Positions 1-11,903 of a DNA stretch of 12,006 nt are shown one piece after another; position 1 is the first letter of the stretch, and every line of letters starts with the position of its first letter. The position numbers were made by a program, and so were the translations under genes. The stretch spans positions 1-12,006 of the forward strand of contig JAMOQH010000081.1 of assembly GCA_027064085.1 (NCBI GenBank). The letters run 5' to 3'. Under the pieces are notes generated by a model. The model was not told the origin of the DNA. It worked only from the letters and a program-made list of their open reading frames with translations, and ran no database searches. This DNA comes from a bacterium. GTDB taxonomy: Bacteria > UBP6 > JAFGXH01.

Positions 1-1601
1 ATATGCCATTGCTTTTAAATTATGGAAAATTATGTGTTAATAAAAAATATAAAGTGGATTCGTTTTTAGATTTAGATAATTTGAAAATTGGCTATCTTGA
101 TAGTGATTATTATGCTGTTGAAGATAATGGGATTATTGAAATGACAAATATTTTTAAACTTGATATAAAATATGTTCCATATGAGACTTATGAAGATGTT
201 TTAAAAGCTGTTGAAAAAAATAAAGTGAATGCTGGTGTTATTAATAGCTTAACCGCAAATCAAATATATGATTATAAAAATATTGTTGATTCAAATTTAG
301 TTTTTGCTGCAAGCGGTGTAAAATATGCAACGCTTAAAAATGAAAATAAAGAGCTTTTATTAAAAATTGATGAAAAGTTGAATGTTTTAATTAATGATAA
401 AGGTTCATATTATTATAATAGATATGATTATTGGTTAAAAAATAAAAAACCGAATTCTTTTCATAAATTTTATAGAGAAAATTTTAAGATAATTATTGCA
501 ACTATTTTATTTTCTTTATTGATTTTCATTTTATTAAGAGTTGAAATTTATCGCAAAACAAAAAAATTAAAAAAAGCAAATGAAAATAATGAAAATTTAG
601 CAAATAAATTTGAAAATCTTGTTAGTTTTTTAAGTTTCAATATTAAAAGGGTATTTGTTAATGGTAATGATTTATTTTTAGCAGAACTTTTAGATGAAAC
701 TATGGAATTAGTTCCGGAAGCTAAATGTGGTGTTGTTTTTAAAGTAGTAAATAATAAATTAAAAGTTGTTAATTATAAAAATTATAAAGATCAAAAACTG
801 CATGAAGTTCTCCTTGAAGCACAAAGCAAATTAAATGGAAATACAAGAAGCAAATTTATAAAATCAGATAAAAGAGTTCTTATAACGTTTAGTGAAAATG
901 AAGATACACTTTGTGGGTTGATAGTTGATATAGGGGATAATTCAAAAGAAACATTTTCAAAATATTCAATTAGAATTTTACGAGTTCTTAAAAAAGTAGC
1001 TGCATCTTATTTCTTAGGTGAAAGTATACATGAATTAAATGAAAATTTTCAAAGGGAACTTATACTTTCAATAGTTCAAATGTTAGAAATTCATGATGAT
1101 TATACAAAAGGTCATTCTGAATCTGTTGCAAATTTATCAAGTAAACTTGCAAAATATATGGGACTTAACGATATGAAAGTAAATGAAATGTACTGGACAG
1201 GCCTTGTACATGATATTGGTAAAATCCTTATTAATAGAGATATTATTAATAAAGAAGGAAGGCTTACTCTTAAAGAATATGAAATAATAAAAAAACATCC
1301 TGAATTTGGATATATGGCTTTAAGAAAATCTAAAGCTACAAAAGATATTGCAAAATATGTACTTTGCCATCATGAAAGGATAGATGGCTTAGGTTATCCA
1401 AATGGTTTAAAAGATAAAGAAATACCTATTGAATCAAAAATAATATCAATTGTTGATAGTTTCGATGCAATGATTTCTTCAAGATCTTATCGTGCTAAGA
1501 TAGATATAGATAAAGCGTTATTGGAAATTGAAAGTAATTTAGGCACACAATTTGATAAAGAAATAGGTAAAGAATTTATTAAAATGATGAATATAAATTA
1601 A
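1..1601 (+). CDS. Sensor cyclic-di-GMP phosphodiesterase (SBP_bac_3 - TM - GAF-like - HD-GYP), copy 1, 5'-truncated
   Basis: This gene runs in from the left edge. The first ATG (base 3) is internal: the residues after it align with residues 106 onward of the next gene, so roughly 105 residues (signal peptide and first lobe of the binding domain) lie outside the window. What remains (532 residues from base 3) is the second part of an extracellular solute-binding domain (about 1-148), a membrane helix (about 161-178), a short charged coiled coil (about 183-205), a GAF-like region (about 206-340) and an HD-GYP domain (about 350-530). The metal and catalytic residues look intact: H371, H403-D404, H432, H456-H457, the GYP triplet at 464-466 and D485. 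HD-GYP enzymes hydrolyse cyclic-di-GMP to pGpG or GMP in the cytoplasm. The ligand is unknown; the family commonly binds amino acids. Its coiled coil and GAF-like region are shorter than in the two paralogues. Probably first visible gene of a four-gene operon. Confidence 0.9.
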   Translation, partial: MPLLLNYGKLCVNKKYKVDSFLDLDNLKIGYLDSDYYAVEDNGIIEMTNIFKLDIKYVPYETYEDVLKAVEKNKVNAGVINSLTANQIYDYKNIVDSNLVFAASGVKYATLKNENKELLLKIDEKLNVLINDKGSYYYNRYDYWLKNKKPNSFHKFYRENFKIIIATILFSLLIFILLRVEIYRKTKKLKKANENNENLANKFENLVSFLSFNIKRVFVNGNDLFLAELLDETMELVPEAKCGVVFKVVNNKLKVVNYKNYKDQKLHEVLLEAQSKLNGNTRSKFIKSDKRVLITFSENEDTLCGLIVDIGDNSKETFSKYSIRILRVLKKVAASYFLGESIHELNENFQRELILSIVQMLEIHDDYTKGHSESVANLSSKLAKYMGLNDMKVNEMYWTGLVHDIGKILINRDIINKEGRLTLKEYEIIKKHPEFGYMALRKSKATKDIAKYVLCHHERIDGLGYPNGLKDKEIPIESKIISIVDSFDAMISSRSYRAKIDIDKALLEIESNLGTQFDKEIGKEFIKMMNIN

Positions 1602-1604
1602 AAG

Positions 1605-1611
1605 AAAGAGG
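1605..1611 (+). promoter_or_regulatory. Ribosome binding site fixing a GTG start
   Basis: AAAGAGG lies 7 bases before the GTG at 1619. This spacing supports the GTG as the true start. The ATG five codons later (1634) would be too far from the site and would shorten the positive end of the signal peptide. Confidence 0.7.
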
Positions 1612-1618
1612 TAGTATT

Positions 1619-3667
1619 GTGAATTATAAAAAAATGATTTCTATAACAATTTTATTATTCGTAATGACTATGTCTTCTTTTTCTTTTTCTAATGAAATAT
1701 TGAAAGTTGGATATTATGATGATTATCCACTTGTATTTAAAGATGATAATGGCGAAGCAGCTGGTTTTATTATAGACATTCTTGATAAATTTAATGCTAA
1801 TAATGATTATGAAATTGAATATATTTATGGTTCGTGGTCTGAAATGTTAAATAGATTAGAAAACGGAAAAATTGATTTAGCTGTAGGTATTTTTAAAAGT
1901 GAAAAAAGAGATGAAATTTATGACTTTAATAAAAATCCATTATTAATTACCTGGGGTAAAGTATCAGTGAATTCAAAATATAAAGTTAAATCATTACTTG
2001 ATCTTGATGGTTTAAAAGTTGGATATATGGATGGTGATTATTATGCTGTTGAAGAAGATGGATTAATTAATGAAGCAAGAGAATTAGATCTTAGTGTTGA
2101 GTTCGTTAAGTATGATACGTATGAGGATATATTTAAAGCTATAGAAAAAAATGAAGTTAATGCAGGAGTTACTAATAATATAGCTGTTAATCAAATATAT
2201 GATTATAAACATATTAAAACAACACCTATAAATTTTGCAGCAAATGGAATAATGTTTGCAACAAAAGAAGGAAAAAATTCTAAAGTTTTAATTGAATTAG
2301 ATGATTTTATTTATAATTTTTCAAAAAATGAAAAATCTGCTTATAATGAATTATATAATTTTTGGTTTACAGATAAATTAAGAAATAAATATGAACTTTT
2401 TTATTATGAAAATAAAACGGAAATAGTATTAAGTATATTTGCAATATTCCTTATTATTGTTTTTTCAAGACTTCAAATATTATATAAGACTAGAGAATTA
2501 AGAAGAACTAATAAAGAATTAAAAAAAGCTAATAAAACTATAAAAAACACTTCTAAAGAAATAAAGAATAATTATAATGATTTAAAATTATTAATTAATA
2601 AATTTGAAAATTTAATATATTTTATTAATAAAAATTTAGTTTCTTCTCATAAGGAAAATGAAGAATCTTTTTTGAAAGAACTTATGATAGAAGCATTTGA
2701 TTTAGTTAAAGAAGCAGATTATGTATTTGCTTATGGTTATGATGAAAATGGTAATTTAGTAATTGTTGATTCAATAAATACTGAAAAAATAAAATTTATA
2801 GATGTTAACAGAAAAAATATTATAAAATTTGATAGCGATATATGTATTGTTAAGGATTTTCAAAATGAATTAATTAAGCATATTGATAAGGAAAGTACTA
2901 AAGATGAAATCATTCGAAAAATGGATATTACAAAAGAATCATTTATTACTGTTTTTAGAAAAGAAGATAGTATAGTTGGTGGTGTTTTACTTGAAATAAA
3001 AAAAGATTCAAATAAATCATTTACTAAAGAATCTGAAAGGCTTATGTATGCTTTAAAAAATATTGCAGAGAGTTATTTATTAAATGAATCTTATTATAAA
3101 GCTAATCAAATTTTTAAAAATGAAATGATTTATGCAATGATTCAACTGTTGGAAATTCATGATAATTATACTAAGGGACATTCTGAAGCAGTTGCAAATT
3201 ATGCAAAAGATTTAGCTAAGTATATTGGAATGAATGATGAAAAAGTAAATGAAATTTATTGGGCTTCAATAGTTCACGATATTGGTAAAATATTAATAGA
3301 TAAGAGTATATTAACAAAAGAAGATTCATTAACTTTTGATGAATATGAAATAATGAAAAAACATCCTGAATTTGGTTATCAAGCACTTAAAGATTCTAAA
3401 TTAACAGAAAAGATTGCTGAATATATACTATATCATCATGAACGAATAGATGGTAAGGGATATCCTAAAGGTTTAAAAGGTGATGAAATACCAATTGAAT
3501 CAAAAATAATTGCAATTGCAGATAGTTATGATGCTATGACATCTGAAAGAACTTATAAAGAACGAATTAGTAAAAAGGATGCATTAAAAGAAATAAAAAG
3601 AAATTTAAATTTACAATTTGATGTTGAATTAGGGCTTAAGTTTATCGATATGATGGAAAGTCGGTGA
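1619..3667 (+). CDS. Sensor cyclic-di-GMP phosphodiesterase (SBP_bac_3 - TM - GAF-like - HD-GYP), copy 2
   Basis: A complete 682-residue membrane sensor. Residues 1-24 form a signal peptide (NYKK, then a hydrophobic run). Residues 27-250 form a type-3 periplasmic-binding-protein domain, beginning with the typical VGYYDDYPL strand and a SEKRDEIYDF segment, and facing outside. A membrane helix spans about 268-284, followed by a lysine-rich coiled coil (about 285-340), a GAF-like region (about 345-490) and an HD-GYP domain (about 500-680). H521, H553-D554, H582, H606-H607, GYP 614-616 and D635 are all present, so cyclic-di-GMP hydrolysis is expected. It starts at GTG, 17 bases after copy 1, and stops 4 bases before copy 3, which argues for one transcript. 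By family logic, ligand binding outside changes the enzyme inside through the helix and coiled coil. The ligand is not deducible here. No GGDEF or EAL domain is present. Confidence 0.93.
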   Translation: MNYKKMISITILLFVMTMSSFSFSNEILKVGYYDDYPLVFKDDNGEAAGFIIDILDKFNANNDYEIEYIYGSWSEMLNRLENGKIDLAVGIFKSEKRDEIYDFNKNPLLITWGKVSVNSKYKVKSLLDLDGLKVGYMDGDYYAVEEDGLINEARELDLSVEFVKYDTYEDIFKAIEKNEVNAGVTNNIAVNQIYDYKHIKTTPINFAANGIMFATKEGKNSKVLIELDDFIYNFSKNEKSAYNELYNFWFTDKLRNKYELFYYENKTEIVLSIFAIFLIIVFSRLQILYKTRELRRTNKELKKANKTIKNTSKEIKNNYNDLKLLINKFENLIYFINKNLVSSHKENEESFLKELMIEAFDLVKEADYVFAYGYDENGNLVIVDSINTEKIKFIDVNRKNIIKFDSDICIVKDFQNELIKHIDKESTKDEIIRKMDITKESFITVFRKEDSIVGGVLLEIKKDSNKSFTKESERLMYALKNIAESYLLNESYYKANQIFKNEMIYAMIQLLEIHDNYTKGHSEAVANYAKDLAKYIGMNDEKVNEIYWASIVHDIGKILIDKSILTKEDSLTFDEYEIMKKHPEFGYQALKDSKLTEKIAEYILYHHERIDGKGYPKGLKGDEIPIESKIIAIADSYDAMTSERTYKERISKKDALKEIKRNLNLQFDVELGLKFIDMMESR

Positions 3668-3671
3668 TAAT

Positions 3672-5726
3672 ATGATAAAAAAAATATTAGTCGCTTTAAT
3701 ATTATTGTTTATAATATTATTTTCAATGTCATTCGATTTTGCCAATGCGAAAACAATTAAAGTAGGTTATTATGATGATTATCCTCTTATATATAAAAAT
3801 GAGGATGGAAAGCCAGATGGTTTTGCAATTGATATTATTAGAGAAATTTTAGAAAATGAAAATTATCAAATAGAATTTGTATATGGAACATGGGCAGATA
3901 TGCTTAGTTTTTTAAAAAATGATGAAATTGATTTAGTAGTAGATATAGTTAAAAGTGAAGAAAGAGATAAAATTTATGATTTTAATGAAAAACCATTGTT
4001 TTTAAGTTGGGGTAAAATTTGTGAAAATAGTAAATATAATGTAGAGTCAATATTTGATCTTGATGGATTTAAAATTGGATATTTAGATGAGGATTATTAT
4101 GCTACTAGTGAAAAAGGAATAAAAACTATAGCTGATAAATTTAATTTAGATATTGAATTTTTCCCTTATCCTACTTATGATGATGTAATTAATGCAGTTA
4201 GTAATAATGAAGTGAATGCAGGTGTAATCAATAAACTTACTATTAGTCAAATATATGAATATAAAAATGTAAAAGATACAACAATTATTTTTGGTGTTAG
4301 TGGTTTGAGAATGGCTACTTTAAATGATAAAAATAATGATGTATTAGATATCATTGATGAGTATTTAGGTAAGTGGAAAAGTGATAAGAATTCATTTTAT
4401 TATTCTAAATATGATTATTGGTTTAATAAAACTAATAATTATGGATTTAAAATATTTTATTATGAAAATAAAAATAAAGTTCTATTAAGTATTTTTATTA
4501 TAATATGTATATTTTTATATTCAAGAATGAAATTATATTTTAAAGTTAAAGAACTTAGGGAAGTTAATAGTGAATTAGTTGATGTTAATAAAAAGGTTGA
4601 TGAAAATTATAAAGAAGTAGATAAAACTTATAAAGATTTAGATTTATTAATTAATAAATTTGAAAAATTAATTAAATTTTTAAGTAAAAATTTGGGAATT
4701 TCACATAAAGGTAGTGAAGAATTCTTTATGTCTGAACTTTTAAACCAATCTATGAATTTAGTTCCTGAAGCGGATTATGGTTTTGTATATAGTTTTGATA
4801 AAAATGATTTGTTAATGGTAATTGATGCGGTGAATATTAAAAGACCTGATTTCAAGAGTTTATATAAAAAAGATTTAGCATTCCTTAATAAAGAAGTAGA
4901 AATAACTGAAAATTTTATGATTAAAATAATCAAAGAACTTGGCAGAGAAGATGAATTAGATGAAATGGTTAGAAGGATGCCTATGTCTAAAGAATCGTTA
5001 TTATTAATTTTAGAAAAGGATAATGAAATCTTTGGTGGTGTTTTATTAGAAATAAAAAAAGGTTCAGAAAAATCGTTTGCTATTGAATCTAAACGAGTTA
5101 TGATTGCTTTAAAAAATATTTCTGAAAGTTATTTTTTAAATCAAAATTTTCATAAAGCAGATGCGATCTTCCAAAAGGAAATTATTTTTTCAATGGTCAA
5201 TATGTTAGAAATTCACGATATTTATACTAAAGGTCATTCAGAATCAGTTGCTAAATATTCAAAATTATTAGCTCAATATGTAAAAATGGATGAAGAAACA
5301 GTAGATACAATTTATTGGGCTGGTTTAGTTCACGATATTGGTAAAATACTAATTAGTAAGGATGTTATTAATAAAAAAGGTAAACTTACGAACGCTGAGT
5401 ATGAAGAAATAAAAAAACATCCTACATTTGGATATAAAGCATTAAATGAATCTAAAGCAACAGAAAATATTGCAAAAATTGTATTATCTCATCATGAAAG
5501 AATTGATGGTTTAGGTTATCCTAATGGTTTAAAAGGCAATGAAATACCTATTGAATCTAAAATAATTCAAATAGCAGATAGTTTTGATGCTATGATATCT
5601 AAAAGATCATATAAAGAGAGTATTACAAAAGAAGGGGCGCTAGAAGAAATAAGAAATAATTTAAATAAACAATTTGATTATGAATTAGGACTTAAGTTTA
5701 TTGAGATGATGGAAGGTAGGGATTAA
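3672..5726 (+). CDS. Sensor cyclic-di-GMP phosphodiesterase (SBP_bac_3 - TM - GAF-like - HD-GYP), copy 3
   Basis: A complete 684-residue paralogue of copy 2 with the same plan. A signal peptide is likely cut after FANA (residue 26). The extracellular binding domain spans about 28-252, the membrane helix about 267-285, the coiled coil about 288-338, the GAF-like region about 345-490 and the HD-GYP domain about 500-682. The active-site set is complete: H522, H554-D555, H583, H607-H608, GYP 615-617 and D636, so it should hydrolyse cyclic-di-GMP. The ATG sits 4 bases after the stop of copy 2. The only upstream purine stretches are GGAAAG (3655-3660, spacing 11) and a weak GGTGA, so translation is probably coupled to copy 2. 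The binding domain differs clearly from copy 2 in sequence (for example VDIVKSEERDK in place of VGIFKSEKRDE), so the three copies may see different ligands or thresholds; that is inference. Confidence 0.93.
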   Translation: MIKKILVALILLFIILFSMSFDFANAKTIKVGYYDDYPLIYKNEDGKPDGFAIDIIREILENENYQIEFVYGTWADMLSFLKNDEIDLVVDIVKSEERDKIYDFNEKPLFLSWGKICENSKYNVESIFDLDGFKIGYLDEDYYATSEKGIKTIADKFNLDIEFFPYPTYDDVINAVSNNEVNAGVINKLTISQIYEYKNVKDTTIIFGVSGLRMATLNDKNNDVLDIIDEYLGKWKSDKNSFYYSKYDYWFNKTNNYGFKIFYYENKNKVLLSIFIIICIFLYSRMKLYFKVKELREVNSELVDVNKKVDENYKEVDKTYKDLDLLINKFEKLIKFLSKNLGISHKGSEEFFMSELLNQSMNLVPEADYGFVYSFDKNDLLMVIDAVNIKRPDFKSLYKKDLAFLNKEVEITENFMIKIIKELGREDELDEMVRRMPMSKESLLLILEKDNEIFGGVLLEIKKGSEKSFAIESKRVMIALKNISESYFLNQNFHKADAIFQKEIIFSMVNMLEIHDIYTKGHSESVAKYSKLLAQYVKMDEETVDTIYWAGLVHDIGKILISKDVINKKGKLTNAEYEEIKKHPTFGYKALNESKATENIAKIVLSHHERIDGLGYPNGLKGNEIPIESKIIQIADSFDAMISKRSYKESITKEGALEEIRNNLNKQFDYELGLKFIEMMEGRD

Positions 5727-6802: not shown

Positions 6803-8209
6803 ATGAGAAAATTAAAAAGAATTGCATCTTTGATTGTAATAATGGTGGTACTATCTACTTCTACATTTGCAGCAGGTTTTACTATTCAACCAAATCCAGA
6901 AAATGAAAAAGATTATTTTGAGTATTTACTTAATTTTGTAATGGAGAATTTTAAAAGTGAAATTCTAGAAAATGGAATTACTAAAGATGATTTAATTGAA
7001 GGGGCTTATAAAGGAATATTTGATACATTAGATGCACATAGTGTTTATTTTAATGGTGATGAATATGAAGACTTCACTACTTCAACTGAAGGTGAATTTG
7101 GTGGAATAGGAATTTCTGTTACTAAAGAAGATAAATATATAAAAGTAGTTTCTCCTATTAAAGGAACACCAGGAGATGAAGCTGGTTTAAAATCAGGAGA
7201 TAAAATCATTGGTGTTGATGGAGAAGACATTACTGATTGGGATTTATCTAAAGCTGTAGATGTAATGCGTGGAGATCCAGGAGTAAAAGTAATTTTAACT
7301 ATTGATAGAGATAGCGATATATTTGATGTAGAAATTATTAGAGCAATAATAGAAATAGATTGTGTTGAACATGAAGTGTTAGATAACAATATTGGATATT
7401 TAAAAATAATTCAATTTAGTGCAGATTCATATATTGAAACAAAAGATGCATTATTAGATTTAAAAAGTAAAAATGTTGATTCGTTAATTATTGATTTAAG
7501 AAATAACCCTGGTGGTTATCTTGATGAAGTAGTATATATAGCAGATCTATTTATAGATAAAGATAAAGATATAGTACATGTTGATTATGAAAGCCAAGAA
7601 GATATTTCTTATGTTGCTGAAATAGAAGATTTATTTCAAAAGGATATAGTTGTTTTAGTTAATGAAGGTTCTGCATCTGCTTCTGAAATTCTAACTGGTG
7701 CTTTAAAGGATAATAATGAAGCTACTATAGTAGGAACTACTACTTATGGAAAAGGAACTGTTCAAACTTTAATAAAATTAGCAACTGGTGGTGGAATGAA
7801 ATTAACTGTTGCTGAATATATGACTGCTAATCATACTCATATTAATAAAGTGGGTATAGAGCCAGATATAGTGATAGAAAATAATCAAGATAAAAATATA
7901 AAAAAAATAAAAGAATCTTTTGTTCCAACTAATGAACTAAAAACAGTATACTTTAAAGATACATCTTTAAATGTATATGGTGTTCAACAAAGATTAAATG
8001 CTTTAGATTATAATTTAGTTCTTGATGGTATGTTTGGACCAAATACTTTAAAGGCTTTAAATGAATTCCAAAGATCAAATAATCAAACAACTACTAATTA
8101 CATTAATAAAGAAGTAATTAATGAAATCAATGACAAAATTGATAACTACTATAATGCGGATAATGATAACCAGCTTAATAAAGCTATTGAGTTATTAACT
8201 ATTAAATAA
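6803..8209 (+). CDS. Secreted S41 C-terminal processing peptidase (CtpA/CtpB-like) with PDZ and peptidoglycan-binding domains
   Basis: This 468-residue serine peptidase is exported and acts outside the membrane. A signal peptide (residues 1 to about 24, ending TFAA) is followed by an N-terminal helical region (about 34-92), a PDZ domain (about 97-182, with GGIGI at the carboxylate loop), the S41 catalytic core (about 188-358) and a PG_binding_1 domain (about 386-447, with VQQRLNAL and GMFGPNTLKALNEFQ). S292 in GSASASE, K317 in YGKGTVQ and Q321 have the spacing of the Ser-Lys-Gln triad known from CtpB (25 and 4 residues), so it should be active. DLRNNPGGYL (231-240) is the conserved strand before the nucleophile. 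The family clips proteins near their C termini; the PDZ recognises the tail and the last domain would hold it on the wall. An in-frame extension back to 6734 is rejected because of the ribosome site and promoter. Its substrate is unknown. It has its own probable promoter. Confidence 0.92.
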   Translation: MRKLKRIASLIVIMVVLSTSTFAAGFTIQPNPENEKDYFEYLLNFVMENFKSEILENGITKDDLIEGAYKGIFDTLDAHSVYFNGDEYEDFTTSTEGEFGGIGISVTKEDKYIKVVSPIKGTPGDEAGLKSGDKIIGVDGEDITDWDLSKAVDVMRGDPGVKVILTIDRDSDIFDVEIIRAIIEIDCVEHEVLDNNIGYLKIIQFSADSYIETKDALLDLKSKNVDSLIIDLRNNPGGYLDEVVYIADLFIDKDKDIVHVDYESQEDISYVAEIEDLFQKDIVVLVNEGSASASEILTGALKDNNEATIVGTTTYGKGTVQTLIKLATGGGMKLTVAEYMTANHTHINKVGIEPDIVIENNQDKNIKKIKESFVPTNELKTVYFKDTSLNVYGVQQRLNALDYNLVLDGMFGPNTLKALNEFQRSNNQTTTNYINKEVINEINDKIDNYYNADNDNQLNKAIELLTIK

Positions 8210-8255
8210 AGAAGAAAAAAAATAAAGAAAAACAAAATATTACAATTTGGTTACA

Positions 8256-8285: not shown

Positions 8286-8311
8286 AGAAATAAATGTATA
8301 AATAATGTATG

Positions 8312-8452
8312 TTATGCACAAAATAGAGGAAATTATTAACAAATTGTGGATAAGTCCTTTGGAAAAGTTGTGGAATTCTAAAACTATCAACATAGTTAAC
8401 ATACTATCAACATATATGAACAAAAAACATATGTTTATCCACATAATCCACA
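8312..8452. other. DnaA-box cluster
   Basis: Within 141 bases there are three exact matches to the DnaA box TTATNCACA: TTATGCACA at 8312-8320 (+), TGTGGATAA at 8345-8353 (the box on the - strand) and TTATCCACA at 8435-8443 (+). A fourth, TAATCCACA at 8444-8452, has one mismatch and abuts the third head to tail with a 9-base period. A perfect 12-bp palindrome, AAACATATGTTT (8425-8436), overlaps the third box by two bases. A weaker TGTGGAATT lies at 8369-8377. AT-rich sequence flanks the cluster on both sides. Known roles of such clusters are replication origins, DnaA titration sites and DnaA-controlled promoters. No dnaA, dnaN or rpmH gene is adjacent and gene direction does not change here, so an origin is possible but not shown. 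The last boxes end 24 bases before the -35 of the downstream promoter. Confidence 0.7.
8383..8414 (+). repeat. 12-bp direct repeat ACTATCAACATA, 20-bp period
   Basis: ACTATCAACATA occurs at 8383-8394 and again, exactly, at 8403-8414. The start-to-start distance of 20 bases is close to two helical turns, so both copies face the same side of the DNA. Between them is the palindrome GTTAAC (8395-8400) followed by a third AACATA (8398-8403). The pair sits between the inner DnaA boxes, which suggests protein-binding iterons or an operator. Confidence 0.65.
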
Positions 8453-8476
8453 GTCAAATTTGTAATATAACTGTAA

Positions 8477-8505
8477 TTAACATTTGATTTCAAATAGTGT
8501 ATAAT
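8477..8505 (+). promoter_or_regulatory. Promoter P1 of the S-layer gene
   Basis: TTAACA (8477-8482, one mismatch to consensus) and a perfect TATAAT (8500-8505) are separated by 17 bases. The upstream sequence is AT-rich, as in an UP element. The expected start near 8512 gives a leader of about 257 nt before the ATG at 8769. Confidence 0.65.
8482..8495. repeat. Inverted repeat in the P1 spacer, candidate operator
   Basis: ATTTGA-TT-TCAAAT is a perfect 14-bp inverted repeat lying almost exactly between the -35 and -10 of P1. The half-site TCAAAT also occurs at 8454-8459, within the palindrome CAAATTTG (8455-8462). A protein bound here would block P1 directly. It matches no operator consensus I recognise with certainty. 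Confidence 0.4.
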
Positions 8506-8562
8506 ACTCATATAACTACAAGTGGTTCTCTTTTACAGTTATGTTACAAAAGTTGAGATAGA

Positions 8563-8591
8563 TTGACTACAAGGACCATAAGTGTTATACT
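8563..8591 (+). promoter_or_regulatory. Promoter P2 of the S-layer gene
   Basis: TTGACT (8563-8568) and TATACT (8586-8591) are 17 bases apart, each with one mismatch to consensus, and TG at 8583-8584 gives an extended -10. This is the best promoter in the window. The expected start is near 8598, 86 bases downstream of P1. Tandem promoters are common for highly expressed S-layer genes. Confidence 0.65.
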
Positions 8592-8647
8592 TTTATGGAG
8601 ATATGATTATTTAGCGTATTTTTTGCGTTTTATAATAAATGCTACAA

Positions 8648-8676
8648 ATATTCGGCACATGTACAATGCTGAATAT
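8648..8676 (+). other. Leader hairpin, 10-bp stem
   Basis: ATATTCGGCA (8648-8657) pairs with TGCTGAATAT (8667-8676), with a single G-U pair, around the 9-nt loop CATGTACAA. No T-run follows, so it is not a terminator. It would be present in both P1 and P2 transcripts. Confidence 0.6.
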
Positions 8677-8680
8677 GAAC

Positions 8681-8730
8681 CAACCAGGTTATAGGCAAGG
8701 GGAGACCGGTTGATTGATCAATTTCCCCTT
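8681..8730 (+). other. Stem-loop with possible H-type pseudoknot in the leader
   Basis: AAGGGGAGA (8697-8705) can pair with TTTCCCCTT (8722-8730), 9 pairs with one G-U. The 16-nt loop contains GGTTG (8708-8712), complementary to CAACC (8681-8685) upstream of the stem, which would form a pseudoknot. Alternatively the loop folds on itself through TTGA/TCAA. The CCTT at 8727-8730 can also pair with AAGG of the ribosome site, a conceivable but weak switch. No T-run follows. Confidence 0.45.
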
Positions 8731-8753
8731 CGACAGAGAGAAACATTGATTAT

Positions 8754-8760
8754 AAGGAGG
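8754..8760 (+). promoter_or_regulatory. Consensus ribosome binding site of the S-layer gene
   Basis: AAGGAGG, fully complementary to the 16S rRNA tail, lies 8 bases before the ATG at 8769. It is the strongest ribosome site in the window and fits a very highly translated product. Confidence 0.85.
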
Positions 8761-8768
8761 AATTTAAG

Positions 8769-11700
8769 ATGAAGAAAATTTTATCTTTAGTATTAGTTTT
8801 AGTACTAGTACTAGGAAGTATGCCTTTAGCATTCGCTGATGAAGCTACACCAACGGCTGGAGAAACATTACAAGCTTACGGTTTAGTTACAGGAATGGAT
8901 GCAGAAGGAAACTTAGGTGAGGATGTACAAGTAACAAGAGCAATGATGATTAAATTGTTAGAAACATTATTAGGGGAAGAAGAGGCTGCATCAACATTTG
9001 CATTACCTTCTACTTTCACTGATGTACCTGCTGACGCATGGTATGCACCTTATGTTGCATATGCTGAGTTAATGGGTTACACAAATGGTATGGGAGACGG
9101 AACTTTCGCTCCAGATGCTTTAGTAAGCAAGCAAATGGTTGCTACTTACTTATTAAGAGCTTTAGGATATGAAGTAACTGCTGAGAACTATGCTACTGCA
9201 GAAGCTGACGCTTTAGCATTAGGAATTGATGTTACTCCTGCTGCTGCTGAGATGACTAGAGGCGAAGCATTTGACATGATGTTAGATGCATTAGCTGTAC
9301 CTACTAAAGATTCAGAAGTAACTTTAGGAGCTAAATTAGAAATCGCTGATTTCACTACTCCAGTAGTAGTAGTTCCAGAAACTTTAGAAGTTGTTTCTGT
9401 TGAAGCTACAAATCTTAGAACTGTTGAAATTACTTTCAACATGGATATGACTGCTAACGAAGAAGCTGATGTTGCTTCAAACTATAAGTTTGATTCTAAT
9501 GCTGCTGCAAAAGCTATAGTTGATGGTGAAAAGGTAACTGTAACAGTTGCTGATGCTAATGCATTAGGTAATTACAGTTCAAAAGATGTTGAGATTAGTA
9601 AAGAACTTGGGTTTGATGAAGATTTAGTTGTTAAAAACGTTTCATTTAAAGATACTACTGTTCCTTCAATTCTTTCTGTTGAAGCAACAGGTCCTAGAAC
9701 TTTGAAAGTGACTTTCTCAGAAGTGTTAGAAGACGATGCTGCTGATGCTTTAACAGGTGTTAAATTAAACGATGGAACTGTTGCTCTTGATACAGCTTCA
9801 AGTATCGTTTACTCAACTAATGAGCCAACTGCAACTATTAAGACTCTTGCTGATTTATCAGAAGGTTTAAATACTCTTAATATTGGTACTACTAATGTTA
9901 TGGTTGATAATGCTGGATACAGCTTACAAGCTGCTGATATTGCATTTGATTATGTTGCAGATACTAGTGAATTAACTGCTACAATTACTGATTCTTCAGA
10001 GACATTTGTTGAGATTACATTTAACAAAGCTCTTAAATCAGGAACATTTATGGGAAATGATAATGTATATATTACTCATACTTATGATACTGCTACAAAC
10101 GAAATTCTTGGAAATAACGTTAATGTAACTAATCCGGATGGCGACGACCAAACTTTTAAAGTAGTATTTGATAATCCGATTCCACCAAATGGCGTGAATG
10201 TATGGGTTGGTTATGTAGATACTGATGCAAAATTAATTGAAGATGGTTATGGCAATGAATTTGCAGCTGCAGTTTATACTGTTTCTGTAACTTCTGATAC
10301 AACTAATCCAACTGCTACAGTTGAATTTAAAGATTCTAATGAAGTAAGAGTAACTTACTCAGAAGATATGGATCAAACTGTTGCAGAAACAACTTCAAAT
10401 TATACACTTAAAGATGCTGATGGTGATAAAGTAAACATAACTAATGCTGTTTATAATGCTGCTGATGACTATGTTACTTTAACTACTGCAACAATTGAGG
10501 GTGGAGAGATGACTCTTGAAGTTAAAAATCAAAAAGACACTTCAGTTGCTGGTAACAAACTTGGAACTCAAGTTTATACTTTCACAGCTACAGATAAGGT
10601 TGAACCTACTGTAACTGATAAAAGTGCGGCTGCTGGAATACAAGTATATGGAGTATCTACTGACAAAGTTAGAGTAGACTTTAGCGAAGCTATGGATATT
10701 ACAACAACTACTGATAAAGATAACTGGTACTTTAATGGATCAGCTCTTGCTGATGATGACACTGTAGAAGCAATTAATGGTAATAAGTCTGTAATAATTA
10801 CTAGAGATGCTGCTGATGTTACAGCAAGTGATACAGTTACTATGGGTAGAGTTAAAGATGCTGCTGGTAACTGGATTAATTCTATTTCTACATCTTTAGT
10901 TGTTATAGATGCTGTTCAAATTGTTCCTAAGACTGTAACTGCTATTTCTACAACACAAATTGAGATGTTATTTGAAGATGAAATAATTACAGGAGCTTTA
11001 ATTGCTGATTTTGAGGTTGATAATGATAATGCAGGATATGATGCTGTTATTGTTGGTATTTCTACAAGCGTTGATGCTGGCGATACTACTATTACTTTGA
11101 CTCTTCAAGATGATGCTACAAATAGTATTGCAGATTATACAGCTGCAGTTGTAAAAGTTAGATCTGCTGGTGGTGCAGCGACTACTGGTGCTATGAATGA
11201 ATATGATATTACTTTAACTTTCACAGAAACTACTGTAGTTGATTCTATTTCTCCTAACTATGTTGGTTCAGTGACTGATGATACTGATGCAAATGGTAAA
11301 ATTGATGCAATTGTAGCTACATTCTCAGAAGATATTTATGTTGCTTCTGTAACAGAAGCTGACTTCTCTGTTGAAGGTTATACAATTGATAGTGTATCTG
11401 TTTCGGGTGCTGAAGTAACATTAGTACTTGAAGAAGGTTCTGAAGCTGATACTGATGCTACTCCTGAAGTAGAATTAGTTGGTGCTGTTGAAGATACTGA
11501 AAGAAACGTTCTTGACGGTGATACTGCAGCTGACGCTGTTGATGCTGCTGCTCCAGTGTTATTGACAGTTGTTAATGAAGCTGCTACAATTAGTACTGAT
11601 GATGTATTAACATTTACATTCTCAGAGGCTGTTGCTATTTTAGCTAACTTAGACGATGTTAATAGCTATACAGTTACTACTGCTGGTGCTGGTTCAATTA

Positions 11701-11903
11701 AAACTGATACAGGTGCAGTTAATACTGATGAAGTTGGAACATTAATGATTAATGATGCTACATGGGCTAATTCTGATAGTATTGCTTTAGTAGCTGCTTC
11801 TTTTGCAGATGCTGCTGGTAATAACTTAAATGCTGCTGCTGATACTGTTACATTTACAGATGTAACAGGTGCAAATGTTGCTGCTAATAACACTATTAAT
11901 TAA
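8769..11903 (+). CDS. S-layer-type surface protein: three SLH motifs plus repeated SbsA-type Ig-like domains
   Basis: A 1044-residue secreted protein. The signal peptide MKK plus a long LVLVLV core ends at AFA (residue 23), before DE. Three SLH motifs follow: about 31-75 (AYGLVTGM, TRAM), 83-134 (FTDVPADAWYAPYV, the best conserved) and 138-176 (TRGE). The first and third lack the usual opening FxDV/W segment. SLH domains bind pyruvylated wall polysaccharide and anchor the protein to the cell surface. From about 205 to the end there are about eight Ig-like units, each opening with a strand such as TVEITFNMDM (218-227), TLKVTFSEVL (311-320), EVRVTYSEDM (525-534), KVRVDFSEAM (633-642), IVATFSEDIY (848-857) and LTFTFSEAV (947-955), as in SbsA-like S-layer proteins. 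It is rich in acidic residues, Ala, Thr and Val and has no cysteine. Richer GC and codon use than its neighbours, two promoters and a perfect ribosome site point to an abundant lattice protein; an adhesin is the alternative. Confidence 0.9.
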   Translation: MKKILSLVLVLVLVLGSMPLAFADEATPTAGETLQAYGLVTGMDAEGNLGEDVQVTRAMMIKLLETLLGEEEAASTFALPSTFTDVPADAWYAPYVAYAELMGYTNGMGDGTFAPDALVSKQMVATYLLRALGYEVTAENYATAEADALALGIDVTPAAAEMTRGEAFDMMLDALAVPTKDSEVTLGAKLEIADFTTPVVVVPETLEVVSVEATNLRTVEITFNMDMTANEEADVASNYKFDSNAAAKAIVDGEKVTVTVADANALGNYSSKDVEISKELGFDEDLVVKNVSFKDTTVPSILSVEATGPRTLKVTFSEVLEDDAADALTGVKLNDGTVALDTASSIVYSTNEPTATIKTLADLSEGLNTLNIGTTNVMVDNAGYSLQAADIAFDYVADTSELTATITDSSETFVEITFNKALKSGTFMGNDNVYITHTYDTATNEILGNNVNVTNPDGDDQTFKVVFDNPIPPNGVNVWVGYVDTDAKLIEDGYGNEFAAAVYTVSVTSDTTNPTATVEFKDSNEVRVTYSEDMDQTVAETTSNYTLKDADGDKVNITNAVYNAADDYVTLTTATIEGGEMTLEVKNQKDTSVAGNKLGTQVYTFTATDKVEPTVTDKSAAAGIQVYGVSTDKVRVDFSEAMDITTTTDKDNWYFNGSALADDDTVEAINGNKSVIITRDAADVTASDTVTMGRVKDAAGNWINSISTSLVVIDAVQIVPKTVTAISTTQIEMLFEDEIITGALIADFEVDNDNAGYDAVIVGISTSVDAGDTTITLTLQDDATNSIADYTAAVVKVRSAGGAATTGAMNEYDITLTFTETTVVDSISPNYVGSVTDDTDANGKIDAIVATFSEDIYVASVTEADFSVEGYTIDSVSVSGAEVTLVLEEGSEADTDATPEVELVGAVEDTERNVLDGDTAADAVDAAAPVLLTVVNEAATISTDDVLTFTFSEAVAILANLDDVNSYTVTTAGAGSIKTDTGAVNTDEVGTLMINDATWANSDSIALVAASFADAAGNNLNAAADTVTFTDVTGANVAANNTIN

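Follow-up and report, generated by a model that had tools for sequence, protein, structure and literature searches.

A cluster of likely DnaA boxes upstream of a candidate S-layer promoter on a probably clostridial contig

Gene content and probable host of the contig

The window analyzed here is the entire 12,006-bp contig C81, from an assembly (G000) of 195 contigs. Three HD-GYP-type genes lie in tandem at positions 3-5726, the first beginning at the contig end and the second and third carrying SBP_bac_3 sensor domains. The region of interest lies between two genes which the first-pass annotation had described as a peptidase and an S-layer gene, and domain matches agree with both assignments:

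6803-8209, plus strand: S41 carboxyl-terminal processing peptidase with PDZ and PG_binding_1 domains (domain match)
8769-11903, plus strand: S-layer protein gene, 1044 aa, with SLH domain (domain match)

The CC/GG relative abundance of C81 is 0.98 compared with 1.35 in the other G000 contigs sampled, which makes it a composition outlier. The best matches of the S41 peptidase within the bin's own family are 38% matches, and the same protein is 91% identical to one encoded on contig C147 of genome G460, the nearest relative, whose family was reached through a clostridial class. Flanking HD-GYP, PfkB and S-layer genes are common to the window and G460. A DNA search among the bin's relatives returned short weak matches and nothing better, and a contig scan of genomes with the bin's DnaA led to distant named relatives and none closer. 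Judging from its composition and nearest relatives, C81 is probably clostridial DNA that was mis-binned into another lineage's assembly, and the position of dnaA in G000 (contig C80) was therefore given no weight. In G460, a YefM/YoeB-type toxin-antitoxin pair lies on the opposite strand between the PfkB and peptidase genes of C147 (L222:5780-6284); the window has no counterpart of this pair.

The DnaA-box array and its conservation

Within positions 8312-8452 the first-pass annotation had reported three exact TTATNCACA boxes, along with a box of one mismatch adjoining another. All of these are present there. Further members were recognized with a matrix built from 143 boxes in nine oriC regions from the family (TTATCCACA and TTATCAACA each occurring 31 times):

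8312-8320, plus strand: DnaA box 1, TTATGCACA, exact (pattern match); identical in G460
8333-8341, plus strand: DnaA box 2, TTATTAACA (oriC matrix); TTATCAACA in G460
8345-8353, minus strand: DnaA box 3, TTATCCACA, exact (pattern match); identical in G460
8384-8392, plus strand: weak DnaA box 4, CTATCAACA (oriC matrix); within block CTATCAACATAGTTAACATACTATCAACATA, unchanged in G460
8404-8412, plus strand: weak DnaA box 5, CTATCAACA (oriC matrix); identical in G460
8435-8443, plus strand: DnaA box 6, TTATCCACA, exact (pattern match); identical in G460
8444-8452, plus strand: DnaA box 7, TAATCCACA, one mismatch, head to tail with box 6; not kept in G460, which has CAATTCACA

Both sequences found at box 2, TTATTAACA and TTATCAACA, are common box forms in the oriC regions of the family. 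The DnaA proteins of ten relatives keep the DNA-binding signature GRDH(T/S)TV(I/M)HA, and the same types of box recur in their oriC regions.

The proposal that three exact boxes are well above expectation holds for their clustering and not for their count. Since the whole 12-kb window contains three exact boxes, all in the array, and 1.25 are expected from shuffling, the signal of the array is clustering rather than number. Seven boxes were found in 141 bp using the oriC matrix, and none of 5000 shuffles exceeded three. The matrix threshold was placed just below CTATCAACA when the site was already known; the result for exact boxes is independent of this threshold, and a stricter one of 9.7 bits retains five boxes in the array. 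Exact-box triples within 133 bp are expected about 0.0008 times by chance in G460, and one exists, at the orthologous place. Genome-wide there is no excess of exact boxes in G460 (73 in 2.1 Mb vs 107 for a reversed-pattern control) and hardly any in G380 (152 vs 136), with 161 vs 141 in G000. Paired boxes at C66:8119/8281 of G000 were discarded as lying inside a coding frame. The conserved repeat block was found in none of the viral contigs searched. The array most likely comprises about seven probable DnaA sites, clustered non-randomly and located outside oriC.

The window and G460 align from about position 8295 into the S-layer gene. Exact boxes 3 and 6 are offset from box 1 by 33 and 123 bp in the window and by 33 and 124 bp in G460. 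Conservation in related genomes, a check suggested in the first-pass annotation, extends to six of the seven boxes in G460 and, beyond G460, to two boxes in G380, TTATCCACA and an inverted TTATCAACA, close to the end of the peptidase gene. Between the window and G460, box bases are identical at 60/63 positions and inter-box bases at 65/79 (82%; Fisher p = 0.02), and identity at fourfold sites of the peptidase gene is 83%. A comparison of the six kept boxes with the remainder gives p = 0.003, with a grouping made after the result had been seen. Because inter-box bases are themselves 82% identical and two species are compared, part of the box conservation reflects general closeness. Twelve further S-layer upstream regions from the family, scanned alongside those of the window, G460 and G380, contain no DnaA boxes, so the array is dispensable for S-layer expression in the family. 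As far as these sequences indicate, it is confined to the lineage of the window, with two boxes in G380.

Other groups of boxes were seen elsewhere in these relatives. A second group in G460 lies at the end of contig C155 (L223:2636-2801), following an AmmeMemoRadiSam-type gene and preceding a frame that the contig end truncates. On contig C133 of the same genome (L224:4623-4654), TTATACACA, TTATCAACA and TTATACACA immediately precede an adenosylcobalamin-dependent ribonucleotide reductase gene. Four boxes within 71 bp lie directly downstream of tsaD (gcp) at about 313.4 kb of contig C1 in G380 (L225:1356-1426).

Candidate promoters, WalR-type operators and leader of the S-layer gene

The same intergenic region contains two candidate promoters, three matches to the WalR/YycF-type operator pattern TGTWAH-N5-TGTWAH, and a structured leader:

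8239-8255, minus strand: WalR/YycF-type operator TGTAACCAAATTGTAAT, just 3' of the peptidase gene; similar site in G460
8461-8477, plus strand: WalR/YycF-type operator TGTAATATAACTGTAAT, touching the -35 of P1; same in G460
8477-8505, plus strand: candidate distal S-layer promoter P1, TTAACA-17-TATAAT (pattern match); both hexamers identical in G460
8532-8548, minus strand: WalR/YycF-type operator TGTAACATAACTGTAAA, before P2 (pattern match)
8563-8591, plus strand: candidate proximal S-layer promoter P2, TTGACT-17-TATACT, with extended -10 (pattern match); similar in relatives
8592-8768, plus strand: S-layer 5' leader with a hairpin common to the family and an AGGAGG ribosome-binding site (fold, alignment)

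The case for P1 and P2 rests on their conservation, since about as many pattern matches are expected by chance. The -35 of P1 begins 33 bases after the end of box 6 and 24 bases after the end of box 7. A scan of 15 S-layer upstream sequences gave at least one operator match in every case, and the minus-strand operator before P2 in all 15 of them (window, G460, G380 and twelve others; L125, L163-L183), followed in relatives by a promoter similar to P2. By this pattern, the WalR/YycF-type operator beside the array is more widely conserved than the DnaA array. Promoters of the WalR/YycF regulon in Firmicutes carry operators of the same form, and those in the window would be a separate control layer beside the array. 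Several genes for S-layer proteins are under the influence of WalR in C. difficile (PMC9210968).

The fold of 8511-8790 is better than that of shuffled sequences (z = -3.1), and a hairpin-like segment of the GGGG...UUGAUCAA...CCCUU type is common to eleven aligned family members (alignment A2). An Rfam search of the S-layer leader gave no match. The doubtful bin, the two candidate S-layer promoters, the WalR-type operators and the structured leader are additions to the first-pass annotation.

Possible roles of the array

In B. subtilis, the six strongest DnaA regions other than the two oriC clusters have between 4 and 11 sites (PMC4447404), and several strong extra-oriC regions control the gene that follows (PMC4447404, PMC8203912); among the genes affected by DnaA, sda is activated and vpr, ywlC and others seem to be repressed (PMC4447404). 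These regions (sda/yqeG, ywlC, ywcI/vpr, yydA, gcp/ydiF, trmE) resemble the array in having several boxes in a short intergenic stretch, are often found upstream of genes and use the same 9-bp box (PMC4447404). They differ from it in that the downstream gene in the window is an S-layer gene with WalR-type operators. We interpret the array as an extra-oriC DnaA-box cluster of the B. subtilis kind, upstream of the distal S-layer promoter in a clostridial host, with a probability of roughly 0.7. Binding of DnaA to the array itself is judged probable. Among the roles offered by the first-pass annotation, the displaced origin lacks support, and the titration site and the DnaA-controlled promoter together make up the best-supported class. 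The array may thus be a DnaA sink, a DnaA-responsive control site for the S-layer gene, or both, and its sequence favors neither sink nor control strongly. Provided that DnaA binds, we would give an effect on S-layer transcription an even chance, and a sink that leaves the S-layer gene unaffected a chance somewhat short of even.

One half of this class taken alone holds that the array is a sink or timing site adjusting free DnaA, with the S-layer neighborhood incidental and transcription unaffected. In favor of this, the locus lies near oriC in relatives, and the boxes after tsaD (gcp) in G380 together with the strong B. subtilis DnaA region downstream of gcp and ydiF indicate that clusters not aimed at a promoter exist. 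However, the array is located upstream of a conserved promoter candidate, as most known strong B. subtilis clusters are located upstream of DnaA-regulated genes, and we regard a pure sink as rather unlikely. The datA and DARS sites of Escherichia coli, which adjust DnaA activity, are like the array non-coding DnaA-box sites. These sites depend on a particular arrangement of boxes and on helper proteins such as IHF or Fis.

The array could also belong to another regulator, such as an OmpR-type protein acting on TTAACA/TCAACA repeats, with some of the DnaA matches arising by chance. The block CTATCAACATAGTTAACATACTATCAACATA is fully conserved yet only weakly box-like, WalR-type operators are nearby, and the repeats CTATCAACA and TTAACATA could be sites of such a protein. 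Three conserved exact TTATNCACA boxes on both strands would not be expected from such repeats, and this explanation seems improbable. Chance clustering in AT-rich DNA, retained through the closeness of two genomes, is in our view still less probable; it would be consistent with the lack of a clear genome-wide excess of exact boxes in G460 and G000, but it is opposed by the shuffles, by the rarity expected of exact triples in G460 and by the better conservation of boxes than of the bases between them.

The least probable explanation is that the array is a displaced or second replication origin. Dense boxes on both strands in AT-rich DNA would suit an origin, and the bipartite oriC of Clostridia (e.g. 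Clostridioides difficile, PMC7561715) has the same box types and AT-rich DNA; unlike it, the array has no DnaA-trio run, no adjoining dnaA/rpmH/dnaN and no gene-direction switch. The relatives have an ordinary oriC at dnaA: box clusters are found there in ten family genomes (the G460 assembly does not contain the dnaA region), and TAG/TAA trio runs occur in the dnaA-dnaN gap of 10/10 relatives. None occurs in 8291-8520 of the window, in agreement with the first-pass annotation, which had also correctly observed that gene direction does not change at the site, all six named genes being on the plus strand. GC skew, which it had suggested examining over the whole replicon, revealed no switch within the 12 kb, with G exceeding C on either side of the site. 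No dnaA was found within the 12-kb window, and the peptidase lies 88 kb from dnaA in G380 (treating its chromosome as circular), 94 kb in G458 and 82 kb in G446, with an S-layer-like gene downstream of it in all three. A second origin is unlikely on this evidence, and an origin of either kind has only a very slight chance.

For an extra-oriC cluster upstream of the distal S-layer promoter, we infer that DnaA would occupy several boxes of the array together. The bound array would act as a DnaA sink, as a DnaA-responsive element tuning P1, or as both. S-layer synthesis would then respond to the level or nucleotide state of DnaA, and the WalR-type operators would carry separate cell-wall control. 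That DnaA directly controls the distal S-layer promoter, with coat synthesis timed by the initiator and layered over WalR-type control, is a possibility we advance tentatively. An S-layer gene as target of a DnaA-box cluster was not found in the literature searched, outside of which most subscription papers fall, and this is weak evidence of novelty.

In cells that have an S-layer, its protein usually ranks with the most abundant products, and its synthesis must keep pace with growth. The array may link production of this coat to the cell cycle, and it extends the short list of probable extra-oriC DnaA sites by a clostridial example. The family-wide WalR-type operator beside it is a testable prediction in its own right. 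A DnaA array at an S-layer promoter, if true, would tie envelope synthesis directly, and in a testable way, to the initiation of replication.
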